A DNA stretch of 64,000 nt from contig NZ_CADDWI010000013.1 in the NCBI RefSeq assembly GCF_902809845.1, positions 496,001-560,000 of the forward strand. Direction: 5' to 3'. This document shows positions 40,639 to 59,715 of the stretch, in pieces (the first letter of the stretch is position 1; each line of letters starts with the position of its first letter). Under the pieces are notes generated by a model that had not been told where the DNA came from, did not search any database, and saw only the letters and a list, made by a program, of their open reading frames with translations. Made by a program: the position numbers and the translations under genes. This DNA is from Chelativorans sp. Marseille-P2723 (GTDB lineage Bacteria; Pseudomonadota; Alphaproteobacteria; Rhizobiales; Rhizobiaceae).

Positions 40639-41807
40639 TAACGCTTCTCCCGCATGCGCCGAGCAAGTGCCCAGCGATGAACCTCCGATGGCCCGTCATA
40701 AACCCTGAAAGCACGCACATCGCGGAAGAACCGTTCAACCACCGTGTCGCGCGTCAGGCCGAGTCCGCCGAGAATCTGGACGCAACGGTCGGCCACGCGC
40801 CAGATTGCCTCTGAGCAGATCACCTTGGCGCGGGAGCTTTCCGCACTGGCGCGCTCCCCCTGGTCGAGAAGCCAGGCAGTGTGCCAGATGGCGAGCCTTG
40901 CCGTGTAGATGTCCATGTCGTTGTCCGCCAGCATGAAGCCGATGCCTTCGTGCTCGACGAGCTGCTTGCCGAAAGCTGTGCGACGGTTAGCGTAATCGCG
41001 GGCAATGTCCTGAGCCCGCACCGCTGCGCCAAGCCAGCGCATGCAATGGGTGAGGCGGGCTGGCGCGAGGCGAACCTGGGCATAGCGAAAGCCTTCTCCG
41101 TCTGCACCCAGCACGTCTTCTTCCGGCACGAAGAGGTCGTCGAAGCGGACAACCCAGTGGCCGCCGGTAAAGGTGGAATCCATCGTGTCGAGCTGACGTT
41201 CCAGAACGATCTCCGGCCTGGGCATGTCGGCGAGGAACATGGTGGCTTTGCCCTCATGCTCACCTGAGGCCATCTTCGCCATGACGATGGTGAAGGCAGC
41301 GTCCTGAGCGCCTGTAATGAGCCATTTGCGCCCGCGAATGCGATAGCCGCCGTCTACCGGCTCGGCCAACGTTTCCAGAAGCGACGGGTCGGCGCCTGCG
41401 CCCATTGGCTCGGTCATCGCAAAACAGGAACGTGCCTCGCCGGTAGCAAGCGGCTTCAGCCAACGCTCCCGCTGCCGCTCGTCGGCAACGACATCCAGCA
41501 AATGGATATTGCCTTCGTCGGGCGCGGCGCAATGAAGGGCGATCGGGCCGAGCATAGAGTATCCGGCAGCCTCGAATGCGATGGCCCGCCCGAAATGGCT
41601 GAGATCGCGGCCGCCATACTCGGACGGGGCATGCGGCGCGAGAACGCCGTGCTTGCGGGCCAGATCCACGAGTTCGCGCCGGAAGTCCTCGGTCGGTCCA
41701 TGGTCGGTCCAGCGCGGGTCCTTTTCCAGGGGGATGATCTGGTTGCGCACGAACGCGCCGATTTCTTCTGCAAGCTCAGCCAGCTCCGGCGGCACAGTGA
41801 AATCCAT
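40638..41807 (-). CDS. Acyl-CoA dehydrogenase, ACAD10/11-type
   Basis: The 389-residue flavoprotein has ACAD blocks CFAMTEPMGAGADPS and RKWLITGAQDA, RTAFGKQL, QILGGLGLTRDT for FAD contact, and YDGPSEVHRWALAR at the C-terminus. Its immediate partner is an APH-like kinase gene 11 bp upstream. In human ACAD10/ACAD11 these two domains are fused, and in Pseudomonas LvaA/LvaC they are separate. Both convert 4-hydroxyacyl-CoA through a 4-phospho intermediate. That chemistry is inferred for this pair. Confidence 0.88.
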   Translation of the reverse strand: MDFTVPPELAELAEEIGAFVRNQIIPLEKDPRWTDHGPTEDFRRELVDLARKHGVLAPHAPSEYGGRDLSHFGRAIAFEAAGYSMLGPIALHCAAPDEGNIHLLDVVADERQRERWLKPLATGEARSCFAMTEPMGAGADPSLLETLAEPVDGGYRIRGRKWLITGAQDAAFTIVMAKMASGEHEGKATMFLADMPRPEIVLERQLDTMDSTFTGGHWVVRFDDLFVPEEDVLGADGEGFRYAQVRLAPARLTHCMRWLGAAVRAQDIARDYANRRTAFGKQLVEHEGIGFMLADNDMDIYTARLAIWHTAWLLDQGERASAESSRAKVICSEAIWRVADRCVQILGGLGLTRDTVVERFFRDVRAFRVYDGPSEVHRWALARRMREKR

Positions 41808-41818
41808 TAAATTTCTCC

Positions 41819-42889
41819 TTAAAGTGGCTGATCCAGGGAGGCTAGGGTGAAATCGATGAGGTCGGCACCGAGCCGGGCGAACCCCGCATAAGCATCGTCG
41901 CCGGCGATCCCGTTGACCCAGTTGCGATGCAATTGGAGAAACACCACGCCTAGCTTCAACATCGCAAGGATACGCCAGACCGGCAGATCATCAATCGGCC
42001 GGCCGGTTGCCCGCGCATAGGCATCGGCGACCTGAGCCCGGCTCAGGAAGCCGGGGTTCGCAGTAGGCATCTGCGCCAGCAGATGCATGCATTCAGGATC
42101 GGCGGGCTCGGTCCAGTAGCTGAGCAGCGTGGCCAGATCCATCAATGGATCGCCGCGGGTCCCCATATCCCAGTCAAGAACCGTCGTGATGCGGCAGTTC
42201 TCGCCGAGCATACAGTTATCAAGCTTGAAATCGGAGTGAAGCAGAGTGGGAGGCAGTGCCTCCGGCTGCTTGCGCTCCAGCCATGTGCCGATTTTTTCAA
42301 TTGCCTTGAGCGTCGAGTCATCCTGCGCAACAGCAGCCCCGCGGCGCATCCAGCCAGCAGTTGTCCGGGCGAAAAAACCCTCAGGCCGCCCGAAATCGCC
42401 CAGTCCGACTGCTTCCGCATCGACTGCATGCAAGGCGGCTAGAGTTTCCACGAGGCTGATTGAGAGGGCGTTGCACATTTGCGCGTCGAACTCGGGCGGC
42501 AGCTTGTCGCCCCGGATCGACAGGCCGGACCGGTATTCGAGCAACTGGAAAGGCACCCCGATCACCGACAGCTCATCGCACAGGTGGAAGCTCCTGGGCG
42601 CCTGGGGAAATGCCTCTCCCAGCCTCGACAAGACGCGATGCTCGCGGACCATGTCATGCGCCCCGGGCGGGAGGTCCCCCATCGGTGGCCGCCGCAGGAC
42701 CGCCTTCTCGCCATTCACCCGAACGAGGTAGTTCAGGTTGGATAGTCCGCCCGAAAGCTGGATCGCGCCGGCTGCACGGTCGAGTTCAATGCCATGTTGT
42801 GCAAGATGGAGGGCAACAGCTTCTACATCGAGTCCGAAAGCCCCCCTGCCATCACTCGATCGGGCTTCATCCACAACAGACGAGGTCAC
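41819..42889 (-). CDS. APH-family phosphotransferase (4-hydroxyacyl-CoA kinase candidate)
   Basis: The 356-residue protein has a kinase-like fold of the aminoglycoside-phosphotransferase class, with LSGGLSNLNYLV in the nucleotide-loop position, VLRRPP, the catalytic loop LLHSDFKLDN (family HGD-x4-N, here HSD) and the metal motif VLDWDMGTRGDP. The start is GTG 42889 after GGAGAAG. It is the first gene of the operon, and a TTGTCAGACAA palindrome lies 16 bp upstream. Pairing with an ACAD10/11-type dehydrogenase argues for phosphorylation of a 4-hydroxyacyl-CoA, not antibiotic resistance. Confidence 0.85.
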   Translation of the reverse strand: MTSSVVDEARSSDGRGAFGLDVEAVALHLAQHGIELDRAAGAIQLSGGLSNLNYLVRVNGEKAVLRRPPMGDLPPGAHDMVREHRVLSRLGEAFPQAPRSFHLCDELSVIGVPFQLLEYRSGLSIRGDKLPPEFDAQMCNALSISLVETLAALHAVDAEAVGLGDFGRPEGFFARTTAGWMRRGAAVAQDDSTLKAIEKIGTWLERKQPEALPPTLLHSDFKLDNCMLGENCRITTVLDWDMGTRGDPLMDLATLLSYWTEPADPECMHLLAQMPTANPGFLSRAQVADAYARATGRPIDDLPVWRILAMLKLGVVFLQLHRNWVNGIAGDDAYAGFARLGADLIDFTLASLDQPL

Positions 42890-42904: not shown

Positions 42905-42915
42905 TTGTCAGACAA
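42905..42915. promoter_or_regulatory. TTGTCAGACAA operator 1 (acyl-CoA operon)
   Basis: A perfect 11-bp palindrome with a central A lies 16 bp upstream of the kinase start codon and just downstream of the putative -10. The same 11 bp occur at 55072-55082. The TGTC-GACA form suits an FCD-type GntR repressor. Confidence 0.65.
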
Positions 42916-42916
42916 A

Positions 42917-42945
42917 AAGTTGACCACATGTTAGAACGTTGTCAA
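42917..42945 (-). promoter_or_regulatory. Putative promoter of the acyl-CoA operon
   Basis: On the minus strand, -35 TTGACA (42945-42940), a 17-bp spacer and CAACTT (42922-42917) precede the operator by one base. The -10 is weak, but the arrangement repeats at the two other operator-bearing promoters. Confidence 0.5.
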
Positions 42946-42997
42946 TCCGAATCTGAACCTTCCGGCAAAATCAACACAGAGTGGCATCGAAAGTGTC

Positions 42998-43026
42998 TTG
43001 TCGAGCCCTTTGGACGGAGCTACCTT
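42998..43026 (+). promoter_or_regulatory. Putative promoter of sulfurtransferase-metC
   Basis: A -35 TTGTCG (42998-43003), a 17-bp spacer and TACCTT (43021-43026) are followed by overlapping TGTC/GACA palindromes. It is divergent from the acyl-CoA operon promoter, about 55 bp away. Confidence 0.45.
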
Positions 43027-43045
43027 GTCGACAACTGTCAGACAA
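43025..43045. promoter_or_regulatory. Tandem palindromes TTGTCGACAA and CTGTCAGACAA (operator 2)
   Basis: TTGTCGACAA (43025-43034, perfect palindrome without a centre base) abuts CTGTCAGACAA (43035-43045, core TGTCAGACA). They cover the end of the putative -10 and the start-point region of the sulfurtransferase gene. The second core is identical to operators 1, 3 and 4. Confidence 0.6.
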
Positions 43046-43081
43046 TAAAAGAATGATAGCTGCACATTCAGGAGGATTCAG

Positions 43082-43924
43082 ATGGACGCATTTCTGGTTG
43101 AGCCACAATGGCTGGAGGAGAGGCTGGGCGACCCGGGCGTCGTGATTCTGGATTGCTCCTGGTATATCCCGGAGTTGGAGAAGAGCGCCCGCGCGGAGTT
43201 CGAGCAGGAGCACATTCCGGGCGCCCGTTTTTTCGATCTCGACAAGGGGTCGGATGAAACGTCTCCCTATGTGAACATGCTTCCTTCCGCGCAACGTTTC
43301 GCTGAGGTCGCGCGCGAACTCGGCATCGGGAACGACAGCCTCGTCGTCGTGTACGATTCCAGTTACGTGTCGGCACGCGTTTGGTGGATGTTCCGCATCT
43401 TTGGCCATGAAAAGGTGCGGGTTCTGAATGGCGGTTGGAAACGCTGGAAGGCCGAGGGGCGCCCTGTCGAACAGGGCCCAGCGGAGCAGCCTCCGCAATC
43501 GGACTTCATCGCACGCGAGCCAATTGGCCAGGTCGCAACTTGGCGCGATGTCCTCGATGCGATTCAAAATGGCGGAGCAGTGGTGGCGGACGCCCGCACC
43601 ACCGAGCGTTTTATCGGCGAACTGCCTTCGGGATATCCCGGCGTGGCGGGTGGGCACATGCCCGGCGCGATCAATGTCCCATGGGGCCGCATGATCCCGC
43701 AAAAAGGCGACTTTACATTCGTTTCGCCGGAGGAGGCAGAGGCAATCTTCCGTGACGCCGGGGTCGATATCGAGCGGCCTGTGATCACTACCTGCGGTTC
43801 GGGCGTGACCGCGGCCATTCTTGCTTTCCAGCTCGCGCGCCTCGGCAAGACCGATTGGAAAATTTACGATGGTTCCTGGCATGAATGGGGCCAGCGGGAT
43901 GATCTTCCAAAGGAGTCGATCTGA
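43082..43924 (+). CDS. sseA: 3-mercaptopyruvate sulfurtransferase
   Basis: This is a two-domain rhodanese-fold enzyme that moves sulfur from 3-mercaptopyruvate to thiols or cyanide. The 280 residues carry the active-site loop CGSGVTA (Cys238), which marks MST rather than thiosulfate sulfurtransferase (CRxGxT-type). The N-terminal inactive domain has LDCSWYIP and VYDSS. A VADARTTERF segment and a GHMPGAINVPWG segment lie in the second domain. ATG 43082 follows AGGAGG. The gene is followed one base after its stop by metC. Confidence 0.92.
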   Translation: MDAFLVEPQWLEERLGDPGVVILDCSWYIPELEKSARAEFEQEHIPGARFFDLDKGSDETSPYVNMLPSAQRFAEVARELGIGNDSLVVVYDSSYVSARVWWMFRIFGHEKVRVLNGGWKRWKAEGRPVEQGPAEQPPQSDFIAREPIGQVATWRDVLDAIQNGGAVVADARTTERFIGELPSGYPGVAGGHMPGAINVPWGRMIPQKGDFTFVSPEEAEAIFRDAGVDIERPVITTCGSGVTAAILAFQLARLGKTDWKIYDGSWHEWGQRDDLPKESI

Positions 43925-43925
43925 C

Positions 43926-45110
43926 ATGAATTCGGCAGACACGCCCCTCTCACTGGACAGCCTGCTGACCAAGATCGGCCGCGAGCATGGGAAAAGTGCA
44001 ACCGCGGTTAATCCTCCCGTACACCGCGCCTCGACCTTCCTGTTCAATACGCTCGACGATTTCGAGGCGGCGGCGGCGACGCCGTTTGACGGCCCGTTCT
44101 ATGGCCGCGTCGGTACGCCCACGACCTTTGCGTTTGAACAGGCGATATGCAAGCTCGAAGGGGGACATCGTACCATAGCGGCCGCTTCGGGGATGGCTGC
44201 TATTTCTGCCGCGCTGCTGGCGTTTCTTGACAGAGGCGACCATGTTCTGGTGGTCGACACCGTCTATGAACCTGTACGCCGCTTTTGCAACCGTATGCTG
44301 GCCCGGCTCGGTATTGAAACCACCTTTTACGATCCGGCCGTCGGGGCGGATATTGGCAGCCTTGTCCGGCCGGAAACGCGGGTAATCTATCTGGAATCGC
44401 CTGGCTCCGGCACGTTCGACATACAGGATATTCCGGCAATCGTGGAGGTGGCGCGCGAGCGCGGCATTCGCACGATCATTGACAATACCTGGGCAACGCC
44501 TGTCTTCCTGAAGCCCCTGTCGCTCGGCATCGACGTCTCGGTGCAGTCCGCCACCAAATACATTGTCGGACATTCGGATGCGATGCTGGGATCGGTGACG
44601 GCCACCGCCGAAACCTATGATGCGGTGCGTCAGGCTACACAAGATCTTGGTGCTGCTGCTGGTTCCGAGGAATGCAATCTCGGGCTCCGCGGACTACGCA
44701 CCCTGTCGGTGCGCCTGCGCCAGCACGAAGCTTCCGCACTTACTCTTGCAAAATGGCTGGAAACACGGGCGGAAGTGGCGCGTGTGCTCCATCCCGCGCT
44801 TTCCTCCTTCCCCGGCCATGAAATATGGAAGCGTGACTTCTCCGGTTCCTGCGGGCTGTTTGCTGTAGAGCTGGAGCCATGCGATCCGCAATCGGTGCGG
44901 GAGATGGTGAATGGGTTGCACCATTTCGGCATCGGCTTCAGTTGGGGCGGCTATGAGAGCCTCATCCTGCCGGTACATCCTGAAAAGACGCGACAGGTCA
45001 TGAAGTGGGATGGCAAGGGCCCTGTCCTGCGGCTTCACATTGGCCTTGAGGCGGTCGAGGACCTGCAGGCCGACCTCGCCGAGGGCCTCGGGAAACTGCG
45101 CCCGGCCTGA
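43926..45110 (+). CDS. metC: Cystathionine beta-lyase
   Basis: This PLP enzyme of the Cys/Met metabolism family splits cystathionine, or other cysteine S-conjugates, to pyruvate, ammonia and a thiol. The 394 residues contain FYGRVGTPTT, AAASGMAAIS, DNTWATPVF and the PLP lysine Lys211 in SATKYIVGHSD, as in E. coli MetC (Lys210). ATG 43926 lies one base after the sseA stop. The MST-MetC pairing suggests handling of sulfur from a cysteine-conjugate or thio compound, with methionine synthesis as the simpler alternative. Confidence 0.9.
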   Translation: MNSADTPLSLDSLLTKIGREHGKSATAVNPPVHRASTFLFNTLDDFEAAAATPFDGPFYGRVGTPTTFAFEQAICKLEGGHRTIAAASGMAAISAALLAFLDRGDHVLVVDTVYEPVRRFCNRMLARLGIETTFYDPAVGADIGSLVRPETRVIYLESPGSGTFDIQDIPAIVEVARERGIRTIIDNTWATPVFLKPLSLGIDVSVQSATKYIVGHSDAMLGSVTATAETYDAVRQATQDLGAAAGSEECNLGLRGLRTLSVRLRQHEASALTLAKWLETRAEVARVLHPALSSFPGHEIWKRDFSGSCGLFAVELEPCDPQSVREMVNGLHHFGIGFSWGGYESLILPVHPEKTRQVMKWDGKGPVLRLHIGLEAVEDLQADLAEGLGKLRPA

Positions 45111-45329
45111 TTAGAGGAGGCGGGGGAGGCGCTTTGCGTTGTCCCGCCTGCCCGTCATGCGACTCACTGCAAGAATTCTCGGCAAGCCGTGCCTCGCCTT
45201 GGTAACCGGAACTTTGCGGCCAGTGGGATAACGCAAATGCTTGCACTCAAAAGATTAGCGGCGGCTCCTCTCACCTCCGGTGAAAAGCGCCGCTTGCTCT
45301 AAAGAAAGTCACGAGGCTCTCCCTTGTCG

Positions 45330-45361
45330 CAAGACGGCAGTAAATGCAGCCTGCCGTCTTG
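45330..45361. terminator. Bidirectional hairpin between metC and the FAD oxidoreductase gene
   Basis: A perfect 11-bp stem, CAAGACGGCAG (45330-45340) and CTGCCGTCTTG (45351-45361), encloses a 10-nt loop in the 286-bp gap between two convergent genes. TATTT follows on the plus strand. A smaller AGGCGGG/CCCGCCT stem at 45118-45149 lies right after metC. Confidence 0.6.
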
Positions 45362-45396
45362 TATTTGCCCGCGTAGCGGATCTCACCTTGCGAGCG

Positions 45397-46728
45397 TCAG
45401 AAGCCGATCGGCCAATGAACAATCTCAGATCCGTCGATGAAGCGGCTGTGGCGGAATGGTTCCGGATCGACATGCGGGGTCTCTCCGGCAATCAGTTCAG
45501 CCATGAGCTGGCCTGCCGCCGGCGCAATTCCGAAGCCGTGTCCGGAAAAGCCTGTCGAGATAAAGAAGCCAGGAATTGCCTCCACCGGGGAAATCGTCGG
45601 GATCGCGTCGGGAGTGACATCGATCCAGGCACTCATTCTTTCGTTCACCACCATATTCGCGAATTGGGGGAACAGTTTCTTGATATTGATCGTCGCCTGA
45701 TCGAGAATCGCGTGTCCGGGCTCGGGACGCATGATGCGATACGTTTCGAAGGGCGAGCGTTGATCCAGCTTCCAGCTTCCGAGCATCATGATTTCTTGCC
45801 AGGTCCGTTTGCCGATGCGGAATTTCATCGCCCGCCACTCGTTCTTCAGTGCAGGGATGTAATCTTTGAAATAGCGGAAGCTGTCCGGCACGATGTCGAC
45901 AGGATGGGCCGAGCGCATGCCAACATTGTAGCCGCCGTCATTGCGCCGGCGGAAACCGAAGCCGTTGCCCGATCCGCACCCTTCCGGACCATTCGCGATG
46001 GGGCGCGTGCGCATAACCTGAGACAGCATTTTCAGCTGCGGGATCTTCACCTTGTGATGACGCGCAAACAGGCTTGACCAGATGCCGCCGGCCAGGACAA
46101 CAGTCTTGCAGCGGATACGGCCCTTTTCAGTCACCACTTCGGAAACGCGCCCGCCAGCGGTTTCAAAACCCCGTACCGCGCAGGCTTCTACGATATGCGC
46201 CCCGAGCTTGCGGGCACCTTCGGCGATGAGGCGGCTGGCTAGATGCGGCTCCGCATATCCGTCCGATGGCGTGTGCAGCCCGCCCGCAAAATTGCGCGTA
46301 TTGCCAGGAGCAAGTTCGTTGGCGCGCTCCCGATTGACGAAATGCGTGTCCAGATTGAATGGCTCCATGGCCTTCATCCAGGCTTCGTACTTCGCCATAT
46401 CCTCTTCTTTGTCGCAAAAATAAGTGATGCCACGCCGGCGGAAACCAACATCTGCCCCGATCACGGATGGAAGCTCGTCCCAAAGCTTCATTGCATGGAT
46501 CATCAATGGCATCTCGCGAATGTCGCGTCCCATCTTGCGCACCCAGCCCCAGTTGCGGCTGGACTGCTCTTCCCCGATGGTGCCTTTCTCACAAAGGACG
46601 GTGGGGATGCCGCGCTGGGCAAGGTGTAGTGCAGTGCATGCGCCGATGATGCCGCCACCGACGATGACGACCTCCGTTTCTTCGGGTACGACATGGAAAT
46701 GGTGAGTACTGGCAGTCTGGATATTCAT
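45397..46728 (-). CDS. FAD-dependent oxidoreductase (DAO/sarcosine oxidase-like)
   Basis: The 443-residue flavoprotein has a dinucleotide-binding motif VVIVGGGIIGACTALHLAQRG near residue 20, an EEQSSRNWGWVRKMGRD segment, a second FAD-contact region with VVLAGGIWSS, and a C-terminal STGFSGHGFGIAPAAGQL block. This is the layout of sarcosine oxidase beta or D-amino-acid dehydrogenase-like enzymes that oxidise C-N bonds. No signal peptide is seen. It is followed by its likely regulator, a LysR gene on the same strand upstream. Substrate is unknown. Confidence 0.85.
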   Translation of the reverse strand: MNIQTASTHHFHVVPEETEVVIVGGGIIGACTALHLAQRGIPTVLCEKGTIGEEQSSRNWGWVRKMGRDIREMPLMIHAMKLWDELPSVIGADVGFRRRGITYFCDKEEDMAKYEAWMKAMEPFNLDTHFVNRERANELAPGNTRNFAGGLHTPSDGYAEPHLASRLIAEGARKLGAHIVEACAVRGFETAGGRVSEVVTEKGRIRCKTVVLAGGIWSSLFARHHKVKIPQLKMLSQVMRTRPIANGPEGCGSGNGFGFRRRNDGGYNVGMRSAHPVDIVPDSFRYFKDYIPALKNEWRAMKFRIGKRTWQEIMMLGSWKLDQRSPFETYRIMRPEPGHAILDQATINIKKLFPQFANMVVNERMSAWIDVTPDAIPTISPVEAIPGFFISTGFSGHGFGIAPAAGQLMAELIAGETPHVDPEPFRHSRFIDGSEIVHWPIGF

Positions 46729-46754
46729 CGAAAAGCCTAATTTCAGAGGTGGAT

Positions 46755-47693
46755 TTAAGGTGTCTTCTTTTTGCTACGTGCCTCGGCTGCGCGGCGGCGC
46801 GCTTTGATCCCCTCCACATATTCGATGAGGAAGTCGTAGAACTGCTTCGCTGCCACGGACATTTCGTCCGGATCGCCTACGACGCCGAGAACGATGGGGA
46901 TGGCGGGAGTAAAAGGGCGGAAGGCAAGATCCGGATTGCGCCTCAAATGCGGCGAGTAGGGACTGACGATCGATAAGCCGAGACCCGCCGCCACGAGATT
47001 GCACACCGCTTCGTGCGTGGTTGCCTCGATCATCATCACGCGATCGATGCCTTCACGATCAAAGAGCGTATCCACTTCGAAGCGGAACGGGGTACCGCGC
47101 GGAAAGCTGATGAAGGGTTGATTTGCAAGGTCGGCTGCGCGGATCTCATCACGTGAAGCCAGCTCGTGGTCGGCACGGAAGACGCACATAGCCGGCCTGG
47201 ACAGGAGTTCGCGTACAGGGATGGACGAATTCGGCAAAGGCAGCGTTCCAACGCCTATGTCGGAGCGGCGAGCGGCAACCCATTCGGCGATTCCATCCTG
47301 TGACTGCGTATCGAGTCTGATTTCAATGTCAGGAAACCGGGTGCCGAACTTGGCGATGATCTCGGGCAGCAGGCCGTTGGCATAGAGGCCCATCGCAACG
47401 ATTGAAACCGTTCCTGATGTGAGGTTGCGAATGGCGTGGACTTGATGGTTCAAGTCCTCAAGGCCGACGAAAAGTTTTTCTACCTGTTCGAAAAGGCGCC
47501 TGGCGTCTTCGGTGGCCTCTGCACCGTTTCGCTGGCGCCGAAACAATTTAAAGCCCACCGCCTCCTGAAAGTCCATCATCAGACGGCTCACAGCAGGTTG
47601 AGAAATGCCCAGCAGTTCCGCAGCCTTGGTCATGCTGCCGAGCGTGACAACAGCGCGGAACGCCTCAACCTGCCTGATATTGAACCGTTTCAC
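46755..47693 (-). CDS. LysR-family transcriptional regulator
   Basis: The 312-residue product has a LysR helix-turn-helix (FNIRQVEAFRAVVTLGSMTKAAELLGISQPAVSRLM, residues 4-39) and a substrate-binding domain. GTG 47693 is chosen because GGAGAAAG precedes it and MKRFNIRQ is the usual start; a frame to 47741 also exists. It lies between the FAD oxidase gene (same strand, 26 bp downstream) and the divergent molybdoenzyme gene, so it may control both. The 200-bp spacer contains LysR-type inverted repeats. Confidence 0.88.
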   Translation of the reverse strand: MKRFNIRQVEAFRAVVTLGSMTKAAELLGISQPAVSRLMMDFQEAVGFKLFRRQRNGAEATEDARRLFEQVEKLFVGLEDLNHQVHAIRNLTSGTVSIVAMGLYANGLLPEIIAKFGTRFPDIEIRLDTQSQDGIAEWVAARRSDIGVGTLPLPNSSIPVRELLSRPAMCVFRADHELASRDEIRAADLANQPFISFPRGTPFRFEVDTLFDREGIDRVMMIEATTHEAVCNLVAAGLGLSIVSPYSPHLRRNPDLAFRPFTPAIPIVLGVVGDPDEMSVAAKQFYDFLIEYVEGIKARRRAAEARSKKKTP

Positions 47694-47761
47694 TGTGACT
47701 TTCTCCGAACGGTATTGCCGCTCCATGACAAGGCACGCCATTGCAGCGCACCGTTTTTTCG

Positions 47762-47816
47762 TGACATAACATTTCCGTCAAAATTACGCAACTTGACGTT
47801 TCAAATATTATGTCTT
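47762..47816. promoter_or_regulatory. Nested inverted repeats in the LysR/molybdoenzyme spacer
   Basis: CGTCAA...TTGACG (11-nt gap) lies inside GACATAA...TTATGTC, both roughly centred near 47790 in the divergent spacer. Dyad symmetry with A/T-rich flanks in front of a LysR-controlled gene is the usual form of LysR recognition and activation sites. Confidence 0.45.
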
Positions 47817-47849
47817 AACGTTCCAGCCAAAGGATCGAGAGGAGGGGCC

Positions 47850-47894
47850 ATGTCCAGATTGCCTGCGATATCCGATGAGAAAGGCGCACGTTAA
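47850..47894 (+). CDS. 14-codon leader ORF before the molybdoenzyme gene (tentative)
   Basis: ATG 47850 follows a very strong GAGAGGAGGGG ribosome-binding site, but opens only 14 codons, ending TAA at 47892-47894. The last A is the first base of the molybdoenzyme ATG (TAATG). It may serve for translational coupling, or be the original N-terminus cut off by a frameshift. Its peptide is not recognised. Confidence 0.4.
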   Translation: MSRLPAISDEKGAR

Positions 47895-50194
47895 TGGCGG
47901 TCCTGCGCTCACTCTCGCATTGGGGCGCGTTCCGGGCTGAGGTCGTCGACGGAGAGCTTGTTTCCGTATCACCCTTCGAGCATGACCCGCATCCCACTCC
48001 GCTGATCGGTGTCTGGCCGGAAATGTTGACGTCGCCCATGCGTGTGGAGCGTCCGGTCATTCGCAAGGGGTGGCTGGCCGGCGATGGCGGCGCCAGAAGG
48101 GGCGAAGACGATTTCGTGGCTGTCCCATGGGACGAGGCCCTGGATATCGCTGCAGCGGAGATACGCCGCGTGCGTGAAGAGCACGGCAACCAAGCGCTTT
48201 TCGCCGGTTCCTATGGGTGGTCAAGCGCGGGCAGGGTGCATCATGCGCGGACACTGATACGCCGTTTCTACAATACGCTTGGCGGGTTCACGGATCAGAC
48301 GACCAACTACAGCTACGGTGCTGCTATGGCGTTCCTGCCTCGCGTCGTCGGCGTGACGAACGCGATCGGCTCGTCCGTCACCTCCTTCGCGACAATACGC
48401 GATCATTGTGATGTCATGCTCGCGCTGGGCGGCATCCCAAAGAAGAACTGGGAAGTGAATTCCGGGGGCTTCGGCCAGCATCGCTATGAAACATTCCTGA
48501 ACGGCGTTGCCGGCCGCACGCGCATCGTCAATGTCAGCCCCTATCGCGGCGATGTCGATCCGCGCTTCCCGTGCGAATGGCTGCCAATCCGGCCGAACAC
48601 TGATACCGCATTGCTGCTTGCGATCATGCAGGTATTGGTGAGCGACGGGAGCCACGATCAGGAGTTTCTGGACCGCTACTGCAGCGGTGCCGAAAGCCTG
48701 ATTGCCTATTTGGTAGGCGAGACGGACGGGGAAGCCAAGACGCCTTCCTGGGCTGAAGCCATTACCGGCATTCCTGCGCAGGAAATCGCCGCGCTCGCGC
48801 GCAGCCTTGTCGGCAAGCGCGTACTTGTTACCGCCAACTGGAGTCTGCAGCGAGCCCGTCATGGGGAGCAGCCTTATTGGGCTACCGTGGCGCTTGCTGC
48901 GATGCTTGGCCAGATCGGCCTTCCGGGCGGCGGGTTCGCGTTCGGCTATGGCTCGTCAAACGGCATGGGCAATCCGCGCTACGCCACGCCGCTCTACGGC
49001 CTCCCGACCGGGGAAAATGGAACGGGATTCGCCATTCCTTGCGCGCGCGTAAGCGACCTTCTCCTCAATGCCGGCCAGTCCTTCCGCTTCGACGGAAAGG
49101 ACTATACATATCCGAAGATCGAACTGGTTCACTGGGCTGGCGGCAATCCATTCCATCACCACCAGGATCTCAACCGCCTGCGTGAAGCTTTCCGCCAGCC
49201 GCAGACGGTGATCGTCAATGAATGCTACTGGACGGCCACCGCGCGCCATGCCGACATCGTATTGCCGGCCACAACATCGCTTGAACGCAACGATATCGGC
49301 GGTGCCTCGCGCGATCCTTTCATCCTCGCCATGCACAAATTGGTGCCGCCGGTGGGCCAATCCCGCGATGATTACGAGATCTTCGCCGCCCTGGCTGCAC
49401 GCCTTGGCGCTGAGGAGGCGTTTACCGAAGGACGGTCGGCGGATGAATGGGTGCGTTTTGCCTGGGCGCAAATCAGCAGCAATCTGTCGAGCCGGGGCAT
49501 CGAACCGCCCAGCTTCGAAGAATTCTGGGAAACGGGTTATTTCGAAATGCCCGAGCCCAGGGAGAATTATGTGATGTTCGCGGATTTCCGCGACGACCCA
49601 GTTGCAAACCGGCTGCCGACACCGTCGGGCCGGATTGAGCTTGGCAGTACCCGGATCAGGGAGATGACCGATGGGGCACAGCCAGGCCATCCCGTCTGGC
49701 TCGATCCTGAGGAATGGCTCGGCGCCGACTTGGCGCGGACCTATCCCATCCATCTGCTGACGCCACAGCCGGAGCGCCGGCTGCACGGCCAGATGGACTG
49801 GAGCGCCCACAGCCGCGAAGGAAAGGTCCGCGAGCGCGAGGTCATGCGGATTCATCCCGAGGATGCCGCAATGCGGGGGATCAATGATGGCGATGCGGTT
49901 CGCCTCTTCAACGAACGTGGCTCCTGCTTCGCGATTGCTAGCCTCGACGATGGCCTGACGCGCGGCGTTGCCTTGCTGCCGACCGGAGCGACCTACGATC
50001 CCGATGGCACGGGGGACCGCAACAGCAATCCCAATGTGCTCACGCGCGATATCGGCACCTCCGAGCTCGGGCAGGGCTGTGCTGCCCAATCATGCCTTGT
50101 TGAGGTCGAAAAATTTGCCGGCGAACTGCCGCCGCTCAGAGTCAATCGTCCGCCGGTGCAGCATGAAGGCGGCGACTTCAAATTGGTTAAATGA
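47894..50194 (+). CDS. Molybdopterin oxidoreductase, BisC/TorA-like
   Basis: The 766-residue protein belongs to the DMSO-reductase family, closest in pattern to biotin-sulfoxide/TMAO reductases: VRKGW-like VIRKGWLAGDGG, PWDEALDIAAAEI, GSYGWSSAGRVHHARTLIRRF (the region holding the Mo-ligand Ser), NQ-type HWAGGNPFHHHQDLNRL, and the C-terminal LLTPQPERRLHGQMDWS. There is no N-terminal 4Fe-4S motif and no Tat signal, so it is a cytoplasmic BisC-type enzyme. Such enzymes reduce S- or N-oxides. Its stop overlaps the VOC gene by four bases. Confidence 0.87.
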   Translation: MAVLRSLSHWGAFRAEVVDGELVSVSPFEHDPHPTPLIGVWPEMLTSPMRVERPVIRKGWLAGDGGARRGEDDFVAVPWDEALDIAAAEIRRVREEHGNQALFAGSYGWSSAGRVHHARTLIRRFYNTLGGFTDQTTNYSYGAAMAFLPRVVGVTNAIGSSVTSFATIRDHCDVMLALGGIPKKNWEVNSGGFGQHRYETFLNGVAGRTRIVNVSPYRGDVDPRFPCEWLPIRPNTDTALLLAIMQVLVSDGSHDQEFLDRYCSGAESLIAYLVGETDGEAKTPSWAEAITGIPAQEIAALARSLVGKRVLVTANWSLQRARHGEQPYWATVALAAMLGQIGLPGGGFAFGYGSSNGMGNPRYATPLYGLPTGENGTGFAIPCARVSDLLLNAGQSFRFDGKDYTYPKIELVHWAGGNPFHHHQDLNRLREAFRQPQTVIVNECYWTATARHADIVLPATTSLERNDIGGASRDPFILAMHKLVPPVGQSRDDYEIFAALAARLGAEEAFTEGRSADEWVRFAWAQISSNLSSRGIEPPSFEEFWETGYFEMPEPRENYVMFADFRDDPVANRLPTPSGRIELGSTRIREMTDGAQPGHPVWLDPEEWLGADLARTYPIHLLTPQPERRLHGQMDWSAHSREGKVREREVMRIHPEDAAMRGINDGDAVRLFNERGSCFAIASLDDGLTRGVALLPTGATYDPDGTGDRNSNPNVLTRDIGTSELGQGCAAQSCLVEVEKFAGELPPLRVNRPPVQHEGGDFKLVK

Positions 50195-50991
50195 CGAGAA
50201 GGACCGGAAGATTGAATCTGCCATTTGATCATGTGGTTACGCTGGTGCACGATCTGGAGAAGGCGGCCGCCGACTTCACGAGGCTGGGCTTTACGGTTCT
50301 GGAGCGGGCGGACCTGAACGCCAGCCACGGTTCGACGGTATTTCGCTTCATCTCGCTGGCGGATGGGTCCTATATACTGCTCACCGCCTTCAGCAGCCCG
50401 GAGGCAATGTCGAAGCACAGGCTCGGCCCCTGCCTTGAGGCTGGGGAGGGCCATGCGGACTGGTCCTTCACCGTTGGGGACGCGAATGCTCTTGCGGCAG
50501 AACTGAAACAGGCCGGCTTTCCCATCAGCGGCCCCGTCGAGGTAGCGAACGTTGTGGAAGGTGGCCACAAATGGGGCCTCGACCTGCTGATGCTGGGCAG
50601 GGGCGCCGGTGGCGATCATGCATTGCCCTTCGTGGTTTCCGATAATGAAGGGCGCGAGCACCGCATTCCCGGACCATCGGATCATGCCAATGGCGCAAAC
50701 GCGATGCTCGGTATCCGTCTTTCTACCGAAAACGTGGATGACGTGATCAAGACGCTTGTGGCGATCGGCGGCAAGGAGGCCGGTGAATCGCCAGACAATC
50801 CAGGCGACCGCCGCATCGGATTTGGAAAAACGTGGATCGATGTCGCGCCAGCCAACGTCGCCGGCGCCCCGGCAGGCGGGCGAATCCTGGAGGTCGTGCT
50901 TGCTTCAACTGATCCAGACCTGCCGGCCGGCGGCAAGGTGCTGGATCTGGCCCTGTCACATGGCGGCGCGATCCGCCTCGTTCGTGCATGA
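50191..50991 (+). CDS. VOC-superfamily protein, glyoxalase-like domain
   Basis: The 266-residue protein has two repeated beta-alpha-beta-beta-beta modules, starting LPFDHVVTLVHDLEKAAADFTRLGF and, in the second half, GANAMLGIRLSTENVDDVIKTL. This matches Glyoxalase_3-type VOC proteins. His14 (FDHVV) and a Glu-rich position in each module could bind metal. Reaction is unknown; ring-opening, isomerisation or a structural role are possible. It is embedded by four-base overlaps between the molybdoenzyme and the amidohydrolase, so it very likely serves the same pathway. Confidence 0.8.
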   Translation: MTRRTGRLNLPFDHVVTLVHDLEKAAADFTRLGFTVLERADLNASHGSTVFRFISLADGSYILLTAFSSPEAMSKHRLGPCLEAGEGHADWSFTVGDANALAAELKQAGFPISGPVEVANVVEGGHKWGLDLLMLGRGAGGDHALPFVVSDNEGREHRIPGPSDHANGANAMLGIRLSTENVDDVIKTLVAIGGKEAGESPDNPGDRRIGFGKTWIDVAPANVAGAPAGGRILEVVLASTDPDLPAGGKVLDLALSHGGAIRLVRA

Positions 50992-51692
50992 GGGCTGGGG
51001 CGATGATAACCTCCGACAAGACGATGAAGGAAATCTTTGAGGCGTATAAGAGCGCCCCGAAGCTTCCGCCATTCGGCATCGGCGAGCGCGTCGCCCTGCT
51101 CAATGTGGACCTGCAGCGTCGCTACACCGATACTGCCACCTTCCCGACTGCCTATGAGGCGGACCCCCGGCAGCTCTCGCTGGTGAATGAACTTTCGCGC
51201 ACTGTGCGTTCCCTCGGCATGCCGGTGATCTGGACCTATGTGGCCTATCTTCGCGGCGGTGTGGACTGCGGCTGGTGGGGCGTGCGAAGCAAATCCGAAC
51301 TGGCTTTGCAGAATGTCGGGCACGGCTCGGAACAGGCGGAAATAGATCCTCGTCTCGAAATTGACCGCGAACGGGACCTTGTACTGCACAAGCGTATGGC
51401 GTCGGCATTCTTCGAGACCCACCTGTCATCCTACCTGACCTTCAATCGGGTGGACACTGTAATCGTGACCGGAGGGGCCACGTCAGGATGCGTCCGCGCA
51501 ACCGTTGTGGACGCTATGTCCCATGGCTATCGCGTCGTGGTGCCGGAGGAATGCGTGGCCGATCGTGAGGACTGGGCTCACTACGCATCGCTTTACGACA
51601 TCGCCGTCAAGTACGGTGACGTTGTACCGACGAGCAAACTGATCGCCGATCTGGGCGGCCTTGCCACAGCGGAGCTTTCCGATGCTGTCTGA
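50988..51692 (+). CDS. Cysteine hydrolase, isochorismatase/N-carbamoylsarcosine amidase family
   Basis: The 234-residue protein has the Asp-Lys-Cys triad of cysteine amidohydrolases: Asp41 (LLNVDLQ), Lys135 (VLHKRMASAF) and Cys168 (GGATSGCVRATVVDAMSHGY). It resembles N-carbamoylsarcosine amidase and related ureidoacid or amide hydrolases more than isochorismatase. It would release ammonia, or CO2 plus ammonia, from an amide or carbamoyl group. It overlaps the VOC gene by four bases and the next gene by 11. Confidence 0.87.
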   Translation: MRAGAMITSDKTMKEIFEAYKSAPKLPPFGIGERVALLNVDLQRRYTDTATFPTAYEADPRQLSLVNELSRTVRSLGMPVIWTYVAYLRGGVDCGWWGVRSKSELALQNVGHGSEQAEIDPRLEIDRERDLVLHKRMASAFFETHLSSYLTFNRVDTVIVTGGATSGCVRATVVDAMSHGYRVVVPEECVADREDWAHYASLYDIAVKYGDVVPTSKLIADLGGLATAELSDAV

Positions 51693-52602
51693 ACCGTTCA
51701 ACTATGATTACGCGCCCTATCTGAACCGGCCCAAGATCGTCTGGCCGGGCGGCAAGCGCCTGGCGTTCTGGGTGGCGCCCAATATCGAGTTCTATGAGTA
51801 TGCCCCGCCGCCAAGTGCTGCCCGCAGCGTCTGGTATCGGCCGGAGCCGGACATTCTGAACTATTCAATGCGCGACTACGGGAACCGCGTCGGCTTCGAC
51901 CGCATGGCAGACGTCATGGCGAAATATGGCGTGCGCGGCTCGGTGTCACTCAACGTGGCGCTGTGCGATCATTTTCCCGAGATCATCGAACGCTGCTGCG
52001 AGCTCGATTGGGAACTCTTCAGCCACGGCATCTACAACACGCGCTATCTTTACGGGATGACGGAAGAACAGCAGCGTGAAATCATCCGCGACAGCCGTGA
52101 AACGATCAAGCGCGTCTCCGGCCAGAGTCTCGACGGATGGCTGTCGCCCGCCATCTCGAACGAGGCGACGACGCAGGACCTGCTCGCCGAGGAGGGCCTG
52201 CTGTATACGCTCGACCTGTTCCACGACGACCAGCCGATGCCGGTGAAGACGCGGTCGGGGAAACGCTTCGTCAGCGTGCCTTACATGATGGACGTCAATG
52301 ACGTCCCTGTGCTGAACTTCCGCAATATTTCGCCGCAGGACTATCTGCAGCTCATCAAGGACCATTTCGACCAGCTCTATGAGGAGGGCGAGGAAAGCGG
52401 CACTGTCATGTGCCTGCCGCTTCACCCCTACCTCATCGGACAGCCGCACAGGCTGTGGCTCCTGGACGAGGCGCTCAAATACATCACGTCGCACGATGGC
52501 GTGTGGCTGGCGACCGGTCGGGAAATCGCAAAATGGTACCTTGATAATCATTATGACGAGGCCCAGTCCTTCATCGACAGTGTGAAAGGGGCGGCGGCAT
52601 GA
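51682..52602 (+). CDS. PuuE-like polysaccharide-deacetylase-fold hydrolase, copy 1
   Basis: The 306-residue NodB-fold protein has RDYGNRVGFDRMADVMAKYGVRGSVSLN, ELFSHGIYNTRYLYGMTEEQQREII and GWLSPAISNEATTQDLLAEEG. These are typical of the PuuE group, which includes the cofactor-free allantoinase. The Asp pair of metal-dependent deacetylases is absent (APNIEFYEY). ATG 51682 follows GGAG and lies inside the preceding gene's end. Hydrolysis of a cyclic ureide or amide is a reasonable guess; the substrate is unknown. Confidence 0.82.
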   Translation: MLSEPFNYDYAPYLNRPKIVWPGGKRLAFWVAPNIEFYEYAPPPSAARSVWYRPEPDILNYSMRDYGNRVGFDRMADVMAKYGVRGSVSLNVALCDHFPEIIERCCELDWELFSHGIYNTRYLYGMTEEQQREIIRDSRETIKRVSGQSLDGWLSPAISNEATTQDLLAEEGLLYTLDLFHDDQPMPVKTRSGKRFVSVPYMMDVNDVPVLNFRNISPQDYLQLIKDHFDQLYEEGEESGTVMCLPLHPYLIGQPHRLWLLDEALKYITSHDGVWLATGREIAKWYLDNHYDEAQSFIDSVKGAAA

Positions 52603-53528
52603 CTATTGAGCCGAGCTACTTCGAATATCCGCATCGTGGTCCCGGCATGGATCACGACCGATATGAGTACAGGCGGCTGGCGACGGCAAAGCCGGTAACG
52701 TGGCCCAATGGCGCAAAGCTGTTGGTTTGGGTGACGCTTCACCTGGAGCATTTTCCGCTGAACATGCCGTCCAAACCTTTTATTCCGGCTGGCGGCATGA
52801 GCAGGCCGGGTCTCAGCGTCTGGGACTATACCCAGCGCGATTACGGAAACCGGGTCGGTTTCTACCGCCTGATGAAGCTGTTTGACCGTCACGGGATCAA
52901 GCCAACCGTCGCGATGAACTCGCAAGTGGCGGTTCGCTATCCGTACCTGCTCGATCGCATTGTCGAGCGAAGCTGGGAGATCGCTGCCAGTGGCACCGAT
53001 ATGGGGCATCTGCATTATGGCGGGCTCGACGAAGCAGCCGAACGCGAACAGGTGCAACGCTCTTTCGCCGAGCTGCGCCGCTTGTCGGGTCAGGCCGTAA
53101 CCGGGTGGCATTCGCCCGCCCATTCCCAATCCCAGAATACGCCAGACCTGGTTGCCGAGGCGGGCGCCCTCTATATCGCGGACTGGATCAATGACGATAT
53201 GCCGTACAGCTTCTCGACGGCAAACGCCACGTTGACGCAAATGCCGCTGTCTTACGATCTTTCCGATCGGAAGATCCTCTACCAGCAGGCGCTGCCCTCC
53301 GCCGTCTATGCGCATCAGATCGAAATGGCCTGCCAGTGTCTGCGGCAGGAGGCGGACACGCGAGGCGGACGCATACTGTCACTTTCCCTCAGCCCATGGG
53401 TTGCGGGACTGCCGGCGCAGATCCGCACGATAGACAACTTGCTCGGCCGCATCCTGGCAACACCGGATACGCGCGCGGCGACCGGCGAGGAGATTCGCGG
53501 CTACTGGGTAGAAAGCACGTCGAAATAA
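52599..53528 (+). CDS. PuuE-like polysaccharide-deacetylase-fold hydrolase, copy 2
   Basis: The 309-residue paralogue of the preceding gene shares the QRDYGNRVGFYRLMKLFDRHGIKPTVAMN start and a GWHSPAHSQSQNTPDLVAEAGALY segment. The region matching SHG in copy 1 reads ASGTDMGHLHYGG, so the first His of the fold's usual motif is lost or shifted. The two copies overlap by four bases. They may form a heteromer or act on successive intermediates. Confidence 0.8.
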   Translation: MTIEPSYFEYPHRGPGMDHDRYEYRRLATAKPVTWPNGAKLLVWVTLHLEHFPLNMPSKPFIPAGGMSRPGLSVWDYTQRDYGNRVGFYRLMKLFDRHGIKPTVAMNSQVAVRYPYLLDRIVERSWEIAASGTDMGHLHYGGLDEAAEREQVQRSFAELRRLSGQAVTGWHSPAHSQSQNTPDLVAEAGALYIADWINDDMPYSFSTANATLTQMPLSYDLSDRKILYQQALPSAVYAHQIEMACQCLRQEADTRGGRILSLSLSPWVAGLPAQIRTIDNLLGRILATPDTRAATGEEIRGYWVESTSK

Positions 53529-53559
53529 GACGCGCCTCTGCGCGATGAGAGAGCATGTA

Positions 53560-54912
53560 ATGAGCAAGTGCCAAGAGATCGCGAAGCGTCAGGCAGGTCC
53601 GACCGCGCAAGCGGATGCCGCCTTCGGGCTGACCGCATCCGAAGCCGCCGCCTCCATTGCAAGGGGAGAGCTGACCGCATCTGCCCTTGCAGAAAGCTGC
53701 ATTGCGCGCACTCTTTCCCGCGATGAGAATGTGCGCGCGTGGACCGTGTTCGATCCGGAAATGGTCCGGAAGCAGGCTGCCGCGCGGGACGCGGAGCCTG
53801 CAAAGGGCGCTCTGCATGGCGTTCCGGTCGGCATCAAGGACATTCTGTTTACCCACGACCTGCCGACGACCTATAATTCGCCGCATTTCACATCGCATCA
53901 CCCAAAGATGGATGCGGCGGTGGTCGCCCTGTTGCGGGCTGCCGGAGCGGTAATCTTCGGTAAGAATGACACCGTGGAATTCGCTGTGAACGGACGGCGC
54001 GCCCGGACACGCAACCCGCATGATCCGTCACGCACTCCCGGTGGTTCGTCCAGCGGTTCTGCTGCTGCGGTCGCTGATTTCCAGGTGCCCCTTTCAATCG
54101 GGACGCAGACCGGCGGTTCCGTTATCCGGCCTGGCTCCTATTGCGGCGTCTTTGCCATGAAGCCGACATGGAACGTCGTGTCGACAGAAGGCATGAAAGC
54201 TTGTGCGCCCAGCATCGACACGATCGGTTGGTACGGCCGCTCGGCAGCGGACATTGCCCTTCTTTGCGATGTCTTCTCGATCGAGGATGATGGTCATACC
54301 CTTCCTGAAGCGCTTGACGGCGCAAGGATTGCGATCTGCCATTCCCCCGTGTGGGACCAGGCCGAACCGGCAACGCGCGATGCTATGGAGCGCTGTACCG
54401 CCTTACTGAAAAAGGCGGGCGCAAAGATCGAGTGTCTTGAGCTTCCTGAGCCATTCGCCGGTTTGACCGGCGCCCATAAGGTGGTGATGCAGAGTGAAAT
54501 GCGCAGCACTTTCCTTCCGGAATTCATGGCGCTGGGCGATACACTCTATCCCGAGCTCGTAGCAACGATGCGCAATGAGGCCGGCTACAGCCGTGCGGAT
54601 CTGCGCCGGGCCTATAACCTGGCGGCGGAATGCCGCGCCCGATTTGACGAGCTTGCGGCGCCCTATGATGGCGTGATAACCCCAAGCACGGCCGGGGAGG
54701 CGCCGTTAGGACTGGAGAATACCGGCGCGGCGACCTTCAATCGAATATGGACTCTGCTACACACACCTTGCGTCAATGTGCCTGGCTTCTTCGGGCCGAA
54801 CGGAATGCCGGTTGGATTGACCGTTACCGCTCCGCGTTTTGCGGACAGGCGTGTCGTTGCGGTGGCGGGGCTTCTCAACACTCTGGTTAGCGATGCAGCC
54901 CATCAAAGTTGA
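53560..54912 (+). CDS. Amidase-signature family amidase, copy 1
   Basis: The 450-residue amidase has the Ser-cisSer-Lys triad: Lys93 (GVPVGIKDILF), the Ser run at 163-165 (GGSSSGSAAAVA) and nucleophile Ser187 (GTQTGGSVIRPGSYCG). ATG 53560 follows GAGAGAG; an ATG at 53545 is the alternative. It ends the run from the molybdoenzyme and is separated from the ABC importer by a 307-bp regulatory gap. Substrate is unknown. Confidence 0.88.
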   Translation: MSKCQEIAKRQAGPTAQADAAFGLTASEAAASIARGELTASALAESCIARTLSRDENVRAWTVFDPEMVRKQAAARDAEPAKGALHGVPVGIKDILFTHDLPTTYNSPHFTSHHPKMDAAVVALLRAAGAVIFGKNDTVEFAVNGRRARTRNPHDPSRTPGGSSSGSAAAVADFQVPLSIGTQTGGSVIRPGSYCGVFAMKPTWNVVSTEGMKACAPSIDTIGWYGRSAADIALLCDVFSIEDDGHTLPEALDGARIAICHSPVWDQAEPATRDAMERCTALLKKAGAKIECLELPEPFAGLTGAHKVVMQSEMRSTFLPEFMALGDTLYPELVATMRNEAGYSRADLRRAYNLAAECRARFDELAAPYDGVITPSTAGEAPLGLENTGAATFNRIWTLLHTPCVNVPGFFGPNGMPVGLTVTAPRFADRRVVAVAGLLNTLVSDAAHQS

Positions 54913-55040
54913 AACTTTGCCGGACAATGTTTCCGTTGTCGTGGGCAGGCAATGATGTTGTCTGTTAGCGGACAGCGGAGAATAGCATAATAAAAGCATA
55001 CGGTTAAACGACAAATTGGCCCGCACACGGAAAAACAGCC

Positions 55041-55069
55041 TTGACAGATTCAGGTTGCAATGTGAGCTT
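55041..55069 (+). promoter_or_regulatory. Putative promoter of the ABC importer operon
   Basis: A -35 TTGACA (55041-55046), a 17-bp spacer and GAGCTT (55064-55069) are followed two bases later by operator 3. The weak -10 ending CTT and the operator placement match the other two operator-bearing promoters. Confidence 0.5.
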
Positions 55070-55071
55070 TT

Positions 55072-55103
55072 TTGTCAGACAAGGGGGAGTTTTTGTCAGA
55101 CAG
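55072..55103. promoter_or_regulatory. TTGTCAGACAA operators 3 and 4 (ABC importer)
   Basis: TTGTCAGACAA (55072-55082), identical to operator 1, is followed by TTGTCAGACAG (55093-55103), 21 bp further, two helical turns. Both lie downstream of the putative -10, as expected for repression. A second FCD-type regulator elsewhere in the genome could also bind. Confidence 0.65.
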
Positions 55104-59712: not shown

Positions 59713-59715
59713 ACA

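Follow-up and report, generated by a model that had tools for sequence, protein, structure and literature searches.

The same 11-base-pair (bp) palindrome lies within the footprints of two described regulators of the GntR family. AlkR of Pseudomonas aeruginosa SJTD-1, an FCD/VanR-type member, has the footprint ATTGTCAGACAAT; according to the consulted portions of the report, it is a repressor whose site lies over the -10 element and which is released by long-chain acyl-CoA (PMC12042122). The footprints of LhgR, as given in the consulted part of that study, are TTGTCTGACAA at its own promoter, which is the 11-mer on the other strand, and TAGTCTGACAA at lhgO (PMC8206213). AlkR agrees with the statement of a preliminary description of the DNA studied here, that FCD-type GntR regulators bind such palindromes; for LhgR, the consulted part names the GntR family and makes no mention of FCD. 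For the FadR subfamily, the consulted portions of Suvorova et al. 2015 describe TKGT/ACMA palindromes with 3 nucleotides (nt) between GT and AC, and paired sites in divergons, where the two sites often lie close to one operon each (PMC4494728). Here, we analyze a 64,000-nt stretch of Chelativorans sp. Marseille-P2723 (contig NZ_CADDWI010000013.1, positions 496,001 to 560,000; hereafter the window, numbered from its first letter), in which such palindromes precede three units: an acyl-CoA operon, a pair of genes for a 3-mercaptopyruvate-type sulfurtransferase (MST) and a metC-like lyase, and a family-5 ABC importer operon. The consensus YTGTCNGACAA is very probably the operator of the FCD-type GntR regulator encoded at 36232-37026, which is predicted to repress all three units jointly until an inducer releases it.

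The 11-mer TTGTCAGACAA occurs at 42905-42915 and 55072-55082 and has no other copy in the 3.77-Mb genome, while copies with one mismatch lie at 43035-43045 (CTGTCAGACAA) and 55093-55103 (TTGTCAGACAG); these are sites A, C, B, and D, respectively (Table 1). The 9-bp core TGTCAGACA is found at 43036-43044 and 55094-55102, and the positions of 11-mer and core in the preliminary description were thus re-found exactly. The window holds five copies of TGTCNGACA against 0.63 expected, a number reached in none of 100 shuffles; the fifth copy (44564) falls within metC. The preliminary description had also called for a genome-wide scan for TTGTCWGACAA, which returned two places only, both at the window's promoters, with no match to a reversed control pattern. 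The 9-mer TGTCAGACA has 16 places genome-wide, four of which are the window sites; 10 of the other 12 overlap an open reading frame (ORF) of at least 120 amino acids (aa) and two do not.

All sites had been described as intergenic, and they do lie between genes recognized by Pfam. The phosphotransferase ORF (41819-42889, minus strand) has its GTG 15 nt from site A, the sulfurtransferase its ATG (43082) 36 nt from site B, and the family-5 solute-binding protein (SBP5) its GTG (55220) 137 and 116 nt from sites C and D. Judged by a mechanical ORF test, site A overlaps a 198-aa ORF and site B a 358-aa ORF, neither belonging to a known family; the test does not set these sites apart from the other 9-mer places, so their intergenic status depends on the genes that Pfam recognizes.

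A pattern-based scan of the genome_contigs collection yielded four relatives of the regulator (67-73% identity), in Aquibium sp., a Tepidamorphaceae metagenome-assembled genome (MAG), Corticibacterium sp., and a small MAG contig. The regulator is rare, as a match of 1e-60 or better occurs in only four of 397 genomes from the order, our genome included. Aquibium, the Tepidamorphaceae MAG, and Corticibacterium contain all three units together with a 68-73% identical regulator. In these three genomes and our own, a YTGTCNGACAA-like site is present at 12/12 promoters, upstream of the first acyl-CoA operon gene, the sulfurtransferase, and the solute-binding protein, and 10 of the 12 have at most one mismatch, even though the aligned intergenic regions are only 40-59% identical across genomes. 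In Corticibacterium, the acyl-CoA operon has been relocated beyond the amidases and is no longer divergent from MST, yet each unit keeps its own site. A fifth, fragmentary genome has CTGTCTGACAA in the gap between the first amidase gene (Amid1) and SBP5. One genome (G069) with the cluster coordinates of another (G062) was counted once, and a 4.9-kb locus ending short of the operon promoter (L073) was dropped. The proposal of the preliminary description that the three units form one regulon is thus matched by sites that recur with the FCD regulator in four genomes.

To quantify this conservation, 6,144 palindromes (5-bp arms, gaps of 0-5 bp) were compared in nine intergenic regions of the four genomes. 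TTGTCNGACAA ranks first, with at most one mismatch in 9/9 regions and exact copies in five; the runners-up, found in five to eight regions, are nested versions of this word or differ from it in a single letter, and 5,749 palindromes occur in no region. After dinucleotide shuffling (300 runs), the best palindrome was present in two to four regions. Because the regions were picked upstream of the three units with the motif already known, and some of their boundaries were set by eye from tblastn ends, this comparison measures conservation and is not a blind discovery.

Three other features of the relatives were seen. Aquibium has a second site, CTGTCCGACAA (L105:5770), 174 bp farther upstream than its importer operator. 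In Corticibacterium (L107:3330-4484), a third amidase just before the moved acyl-CoA operon appears in three match pieces, as if broken or misassembled. One TGTCWGACAA place in the relatives (L077) adjoins a weak FCD-like match.

The position of the sites relative to predicted promoters is also conserved. All eight promoters of the acyl-CoA and importer operons in the four genomes have a TTGAC that begins 28-31 nt upstream of the operator, whereas a random place in the window has TTGAC at that distance with a probability of 0.0034 per site. When -10 hexamers are placed by assuming a 17-nt spacer, they end 0-2 nt ahead of the operator in 7/8 promoters and overlap its first base in 1/8. This agrees with the earlier suggestion of a repressor site beside a promoter, as predicted for the acyl-CoA and importer operons in four genomes. 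The preliminary description had noted a box, a 17-nt spacer, and a hexamer beside the palindrome in all three units; all three are present, but the MST box (TTGTCG-17) is found in only 2/4 genomes, our own and Aquibium. The sites, their conservation, the promoter spacing, and the co-occurrence with the regulator are direct observations.

A related palindrome, TTGTCGACAA, had been reported at 43025-43034. Its location was confirmed, and it is of even length and lies 10.5 bp (centre to centre) from site B, but it is not conserved: when the 60 nt upstream of the B-like site were examined in three relatives, the best match had four mismatches in each, and we therefore rejected TTGTCGACAA as a conserved site.

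The call of an FCD-type GntR regulator at 36.2-37.0 kb is borne out by Pfam (Table 1). The protein has the N-terminal GntR winged helix-turn-helix (HTH) and C-terminal FCD domain that define the FCD (FadR) subfamily, and the predicted operator, TTGT-CNG-ACAA by cross-genome conservation, has the subfamily form TKGT-N3-ACMA. In the consulted portions of Suvorova et al., an Arg at HTH position 28 is associated with G as the second base of TKGT, with A/T then avoided; we used their table to assign positions 27 and 38 to the invariant Glu and Arg of our alignment (PMC4494728). Among 17 aligned homologues, Arg occurs at position 28 in none and at position 38 in all, where it is the equivalent of FadR Arg-45; the lack of Arg at position 28 agrees with TTGT rather than TGGT. 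D165, H169, H213, and H235 are invariant in 17/17 and presumably correspond to the Asp and His residues that typically coordinate the metal in the effector pocket of metal-binding FCD regulators.

Sites also co-occur with more distant homologues of the regulator. Around the 12 aligned homologues beyond the closest group (40-54% identity), nine have an exact TTGTCNGACAA, two have one-mismatch copies only, and one, at a contig end (G112), has none, where the chance expectation of an exact copy is 0.003-0.022 in the 15-20 kb around each. One genome (G073, L114) has a 46% identical regulator and the same acyl-CoA operon, with TTGTCGGACAA before the phosphotransferase and no sulfur/amide genes in the stretches read; a second stretch of this genome with one more C-centre site (L115) was left out of the counts. 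A Cupriavidus plasmid has TTGTCTGACAA between regulator and operon. Four plasmid homologues (L122, L123, L124, and L125), which are unaligned and stand outside the residue count, have an exact site in two cases, a one-mismatch site in one, and none in Rhizorhabdus (L123).

We propose that the regulator would act as a dimer with one TTGTC half-site per subunit. Without inducer, the dimer would sit just after the -10 element of the acyl-CoA operon and the importer, and close to the MST-metC promoter, and would block transcription; the 21-bp spacing of sites C and D at the importer would allow two dimers to bind on one face of the DNA. As the acyl-CoA operon holds the regulator's own gene, the regulator would control its own expression. 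The dimer would be released, and the three units switched on together, when a pathway intermediate (most probably a carboxylate or an acyl-CoA) occupies the FCD domain. Binding, repression, effector, and cooperation are what we infer from the sequences.

Several observations weigh against this model. The MST sites are the weakest, with two mismatches in Aquibium (CTGTCTGACAT) and the Tepidamorphaceae MAG (CTGTCTGATAA), and among the promoters of the three units that of MST is the least clear, TTGAC being absent from the 50 nt upstream of the MST sites in 4/4 genomes. TTGAC is also missing from the importer promoter of the fifth genome (8/9 over five genomes), and most -10 hexamers are poor: only GATAAT in Corticibacterium is near textbook, and AAGAAA in the MAG is poor. 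Gly at HTH position 59 would favor G at the second base. In the four relatives, TGTCWGACAA gives 24 rows against 16 for the reversed pattern, and the control is higher in two of the four; among 19 distinct places (G061-G064), seven are cluster promoters, while nine fall within ORFs of 150 aa or longer, one outside (L084), and two at cut loci (L087 and L092). Such counts near control, and two further exact 11-mers in Aquibium that lie inside ORFs away from these genes, would suit chance palindromes or a repeat element, an explanation that is hardly credible in view of the 12 promoter sites conserved within such divergent flanks and the shuffle results. For TTGTCWGACAA, the genome-wide scatter that the preliminary description had warned of is absent from our own genome, and in the relatives counts are near control but promoter positions are conserved. 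The evidence for the sites is their position, not their abundance. It is also quite unlikely that the regulator activates these units, or both activates and represses. Some FCD regulators do activate, but the operator follows the -10 hexamer so closely (or overlaps its last base) that a bound dimer would block polymerase. AlkR, which has the same motif over its -10 element, represses according to the consulted portions of that report (PMC12042122).

Repression could also be exerted by another protein. Our genome encodes 12 FCD proteins, and two paralogues, at C7:22611 (L061; 54% identical) and C13:117650 (L062; 40%), share the same Arg, lack Arg at position 28, and have near-identical TTGTC-type sites with a C/G centre nearby, one-mismatch copies at the former and one exact copy (TTGTCGGACAA) at the latter, which is a further point against our model. 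Such a paralogue, binding the sites alone or additionally, would imply a wider or different regulon. The residue that precedes the recognition Arg, at position 37, is Ser in the single clade formed by the five close orthologues, whereas the remaining 12 homologues have His or Asn there; its FadR equivalent, Thr-44, contacts bases (PMC4494728, consulted portions). The centre base of exact sites is A/T in 5/5 cases near Ser-37 regulators and C/G in 11/12 near aligned His/Asn-37 regulators, with Cupriavidus (Asn, T centre) as the exception; one-mismatch operators break this split, as in the Corticibacterium MST operator (C centre). The centre base together with residue 37 is a lead toward a specificity marker, and Ser versus His before the recognition Arg may cause the difference between A/T centres here and C/G centres near the paralogues. 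Since it is the cluster's own regulator gene that is conserved with the sites in four genomes, a role for a paralogue is unlikely, though not negligibly so. The LysR-type regulator (46755-47741), although its gene is located between the units and conserved alongside them, is a very improbable user of the sites. Six sulfur/amide clusters were compared, four with the FCD regulator and two without. PuuE-like matches occur in 18/385 genomes of the class and 4/397 of the order, our own included in both; the one newly fetched cluster among them, from the same family (G035), has SBP5, permeases, ATPases, amidase, both PuuE-like hydrolases, isochorismatase, glyoxalase, molybdenum (Mo) enzyme, LysR, FAD oxidase, and metC together. 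In the 38.9 kb read, it has neither the acyl-CoA operon nor MST, nor TTGTCNGACAA even at one mismatch, and its genome has no close regulator (best E 2.8e-17). Plasmid pPABY2 of Salipiger abyssi has the sulfur/amide genes and LysR, with no adjoining regulator and no site in 28.9 kb. LysR is therefore kept where the motif is missing, and TGTCNGACA is absent from its divergent promoter with the Mo enzyme. In P. aeruginosa, the LysR-type protein CrgA acts at the same promoter as the 11-mer, but, in the consulted portions of the study, it does not bind a 46-bp fragment with the 11-mer and has its sites elsewhere in the promoter (PMC6422896). The two absences are supportive of our regulon, not strong, because base composition alone predicts 0.46 and 0.26 hits, so that zero is weak by itself, and the same Salipiger strain has, on another plasmid, a 38.5% identical FCD gene that neighbors genes for a phosphotransferase and an acyl-CoA dehydrogenase and is preceded, at 115 bp, by a one-mismatch site. 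Genomes with weaker PuuE-like matches (54-64% identity) stood outside this comparison; a Comamonas locus (L126) with isochorismatase and PuuE-like genes, and no sulfur genes seen, has no site.

Table 1. Predicted operators, promoters, and genes of the proposed regulon (window coordinates).
Feature	Coordinates	Strand	Remarks
Predicted operator A, TTGTCTGACAA	42905..42915	-	Acyl-CoA operon; promoter has site in 4/4 genomes
Predicted operator B, CTGTCAGACAA	43035..43045	+	MST-metC; related site in 4/4 genomes, 2 mismatches in two
Predicted operator C, TTGTCAGACAA	55072..55082	+	Importer operon; at most 1 mismatch at this promoter in 5/5 genomes
Predicted operator D, TTGTCAGACAG	55093..55103	+	21 bp (two helical turns) past operator C, centre to centre
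Even palindrome TTGTCGACAA	43025..43034	.	Overlaps -10 of MST-metC promoter; possible extra site, unconserved
Predicted promoter TTGACA-17-CAACTT, acyl-CoA operon	42917..42945	-	Operator 1 nt beyond hexamer
Predicted promoter TTGACA-17-GAGCTT, importer operon	55041..55069	+	Operator 2 nt beyond hexamer
Predicted promoter TTGTCG-17-TACCTT, MST-metC, weak	42998..43026	+	Overlaps TTGTCGACAA; 8 nt ahead of 11-mer
FCD-type GntR regulator, last gene of acyl-CoA operon	36232..37026	-	Pfam FCD PF07729 3.2e-23, GntR PF00392 1.7e-17
AMP-forming acyl-CoA ligase	37023..38666	-	Pfam AMP-binding
CoA-transferase family III	38666..39877	-	Pfam
SDR oxidoreductase, candidate LvaD-like step	39862..40638	-	Pfam
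Acyl-CoA dehydrogenase, ACAD11/LvaC type	40638..41807	-	Best PDB match ACAD11 6e-54
APH-family phosphotransferase, first gene of operon; 4-hydroxyacyl-CoA kinase candidate	41819..42889	-	Pfam APH
3-mercaptopyruvate-type sulfurtransferase (MST)	43082..43924	+	Rhodanese; NF008557 248.4 bits vs cut-off 250
Cystathionine beta-lyase, metC-like	43821..45110	+	TIGR01324 above cut-off
LysR-type regulator	46755..47741		
Family-5 solute-binding protein (SBP5)	55220..56851	+	Pfam SBP_bac_5
Importer: two permeases and two ATPases	56856..60732	+	Pfam

The acyl-CoA operon looks like a 4-hydroxyacyl-CoA module of the lva/ACAD11 kind. Its phosphotransferase has as best PDB match 9o56 (named aminoglycoside phosphotransferase; 3.5e-68) and also matches the ACAD11 kinase domain (8v3v; 5.1e-34). 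In the alignment of the dehydrogenase, the equivalents of mouse ACAD11 R626, H634, R637, and D753 are all identical (numbering with an inferred one-residue offset); the Arg, His, Arg, and catalytic Asp are named as common to ACAD10/11 and LvaC in the consulted portions of PMC12440821. An lva-type route converts 4-oxo or 4-hydroxy acids to 3-hydroxyacyl-CoA (PMC6692424, consulted portions), and such a route is proposed here from the kinase and ACAD11-type dehydrogenase matches together with the SDR and the ligase. The six operon genes abut or overlap, which leaves no room for LvaB among them (the rest of the genome was not searched for it), and the operon's regulator is of the GntR family rather than sigma-54 LvaR. 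For these two reasons, the module would work like lva but is not classed as an lva operon.

MST and metC are divergent from this operon in the window. The family match of the metC-like protein starts at residue 49, so its true start is probably downstream of 43821. To the right of metC are genes for an FAD oxidase, the LysR-type regulator, a BisC-family-like protein, a glyoxalase-like protein, an isochorismatase-type hydrolase, two PuuE-like hydrolases, and an amidase, beyond which lie the importer and two further amidases. In NCBIfam, this BisC-like Mo enzyme scores best against the BisC family of S/N-oxide reductases, but its 888.6 bits stay under the cut-off of 1017.55. Matches of the isochorismatase-type hydrolase to RutB and biuret hydrolase are weak, the two PuuE-like hydrolases match allantoinase PuuE distantly (the PDB matches of the PuuE-like enzyme include allantoinase), and the importer matches name no ligand. 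Region 47894-54912 thus groups a BisC-family-like S/N-oxide reductase, two PuuE-like hydrolases, a RutB-like hydrolase, and an amidase. Most of this gene set also occurs on Salipiger abyssi pPABY2 (L120), which has hydantoinase/oxoprolinase A and B genes as well. Elsewhere in our genome (C13:657000-676900; L152) is a second isochorismatase-PuuE-PuuE set (53%, 63%, and 40% identical), with a short GntR-like match nearby. Farther left in the window, 14743-19956 contains histidine-utilization-like genes (urocanase, aromatic amino acid lyase family, amidohydrolase).

Each module, sulfur/amide or acyl-CoA, occurs without the other in some bacteria examined, and the locus can therefore be read as a case of two gene sets placed under one predicted repressor. 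It is possible, if doubtful, that the sulfur/amide module was wired to the 4-hydroxyacyl-CoA module by gaining its operators, making one composite pathway, and that the centre base with Ser versus His/Asn separates paralogous FCD regulators. The sulfur/amide module would then consist of its own LysR gene, the BisC-family reductase, PuuE-like and RutB-like hydrolases, amidases, a C-S lyase, the sulfurtransferase, and the importer. We infer a substrate that would combine a gamma-oxygenated (or gamma-thio) acid chain with sulfur and with a cyclic amide or ureide. A biotin-like compound would fit chemically and is a guess; a search of the biotin catabolism literature showed no bacterial gene cluster in titles or abstract starts among the matches listed. 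With a named regulator and sites, a motif spotted by eye becomes a predicted three-operon regulon, which joins genes that annotation alone would not (4-hydroxyacyl-CoA module, C-S lyase, and importer) and so narrows the search for the substrate.

Compared with described systems, the acyl-CoA operon shares with the lva operon and ACAD10/ACAD11 a kinase, an acyl-CoA dehydrogenase with the R/H/R/D signature, an SDR, and an acyl-CoA ligase, but differs from the lva operon in its GntR regulator in place of LvaR, an extra family-III CoA-transferase, and its linkage to sulfur/amide genes (PMC6692424 and PMC12440821, consulted portions). Our literature searches on the 11-mers, on FCD/GntR catabolic regulons of Rhizobiales, and on the sulfur/amide gene combination found no paper on this regulon, and the regulator's orthologous group is not named in the consulted portions of Suvorova et al. 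2015 (PMC4494728). Unlike the regulator of the window, AlkR targets alkane monooxygenase genes (PMC12042122), and LhgR responds to L-2-hydroxyglutarate and targets lhgO (PMC8206213), as far as the consulted portions of these studies describe. Altogether, because the AlkR and LhgR footprints hold the same 11-mer, the operator type is already known, and what is new is the predicted regulon of three units.

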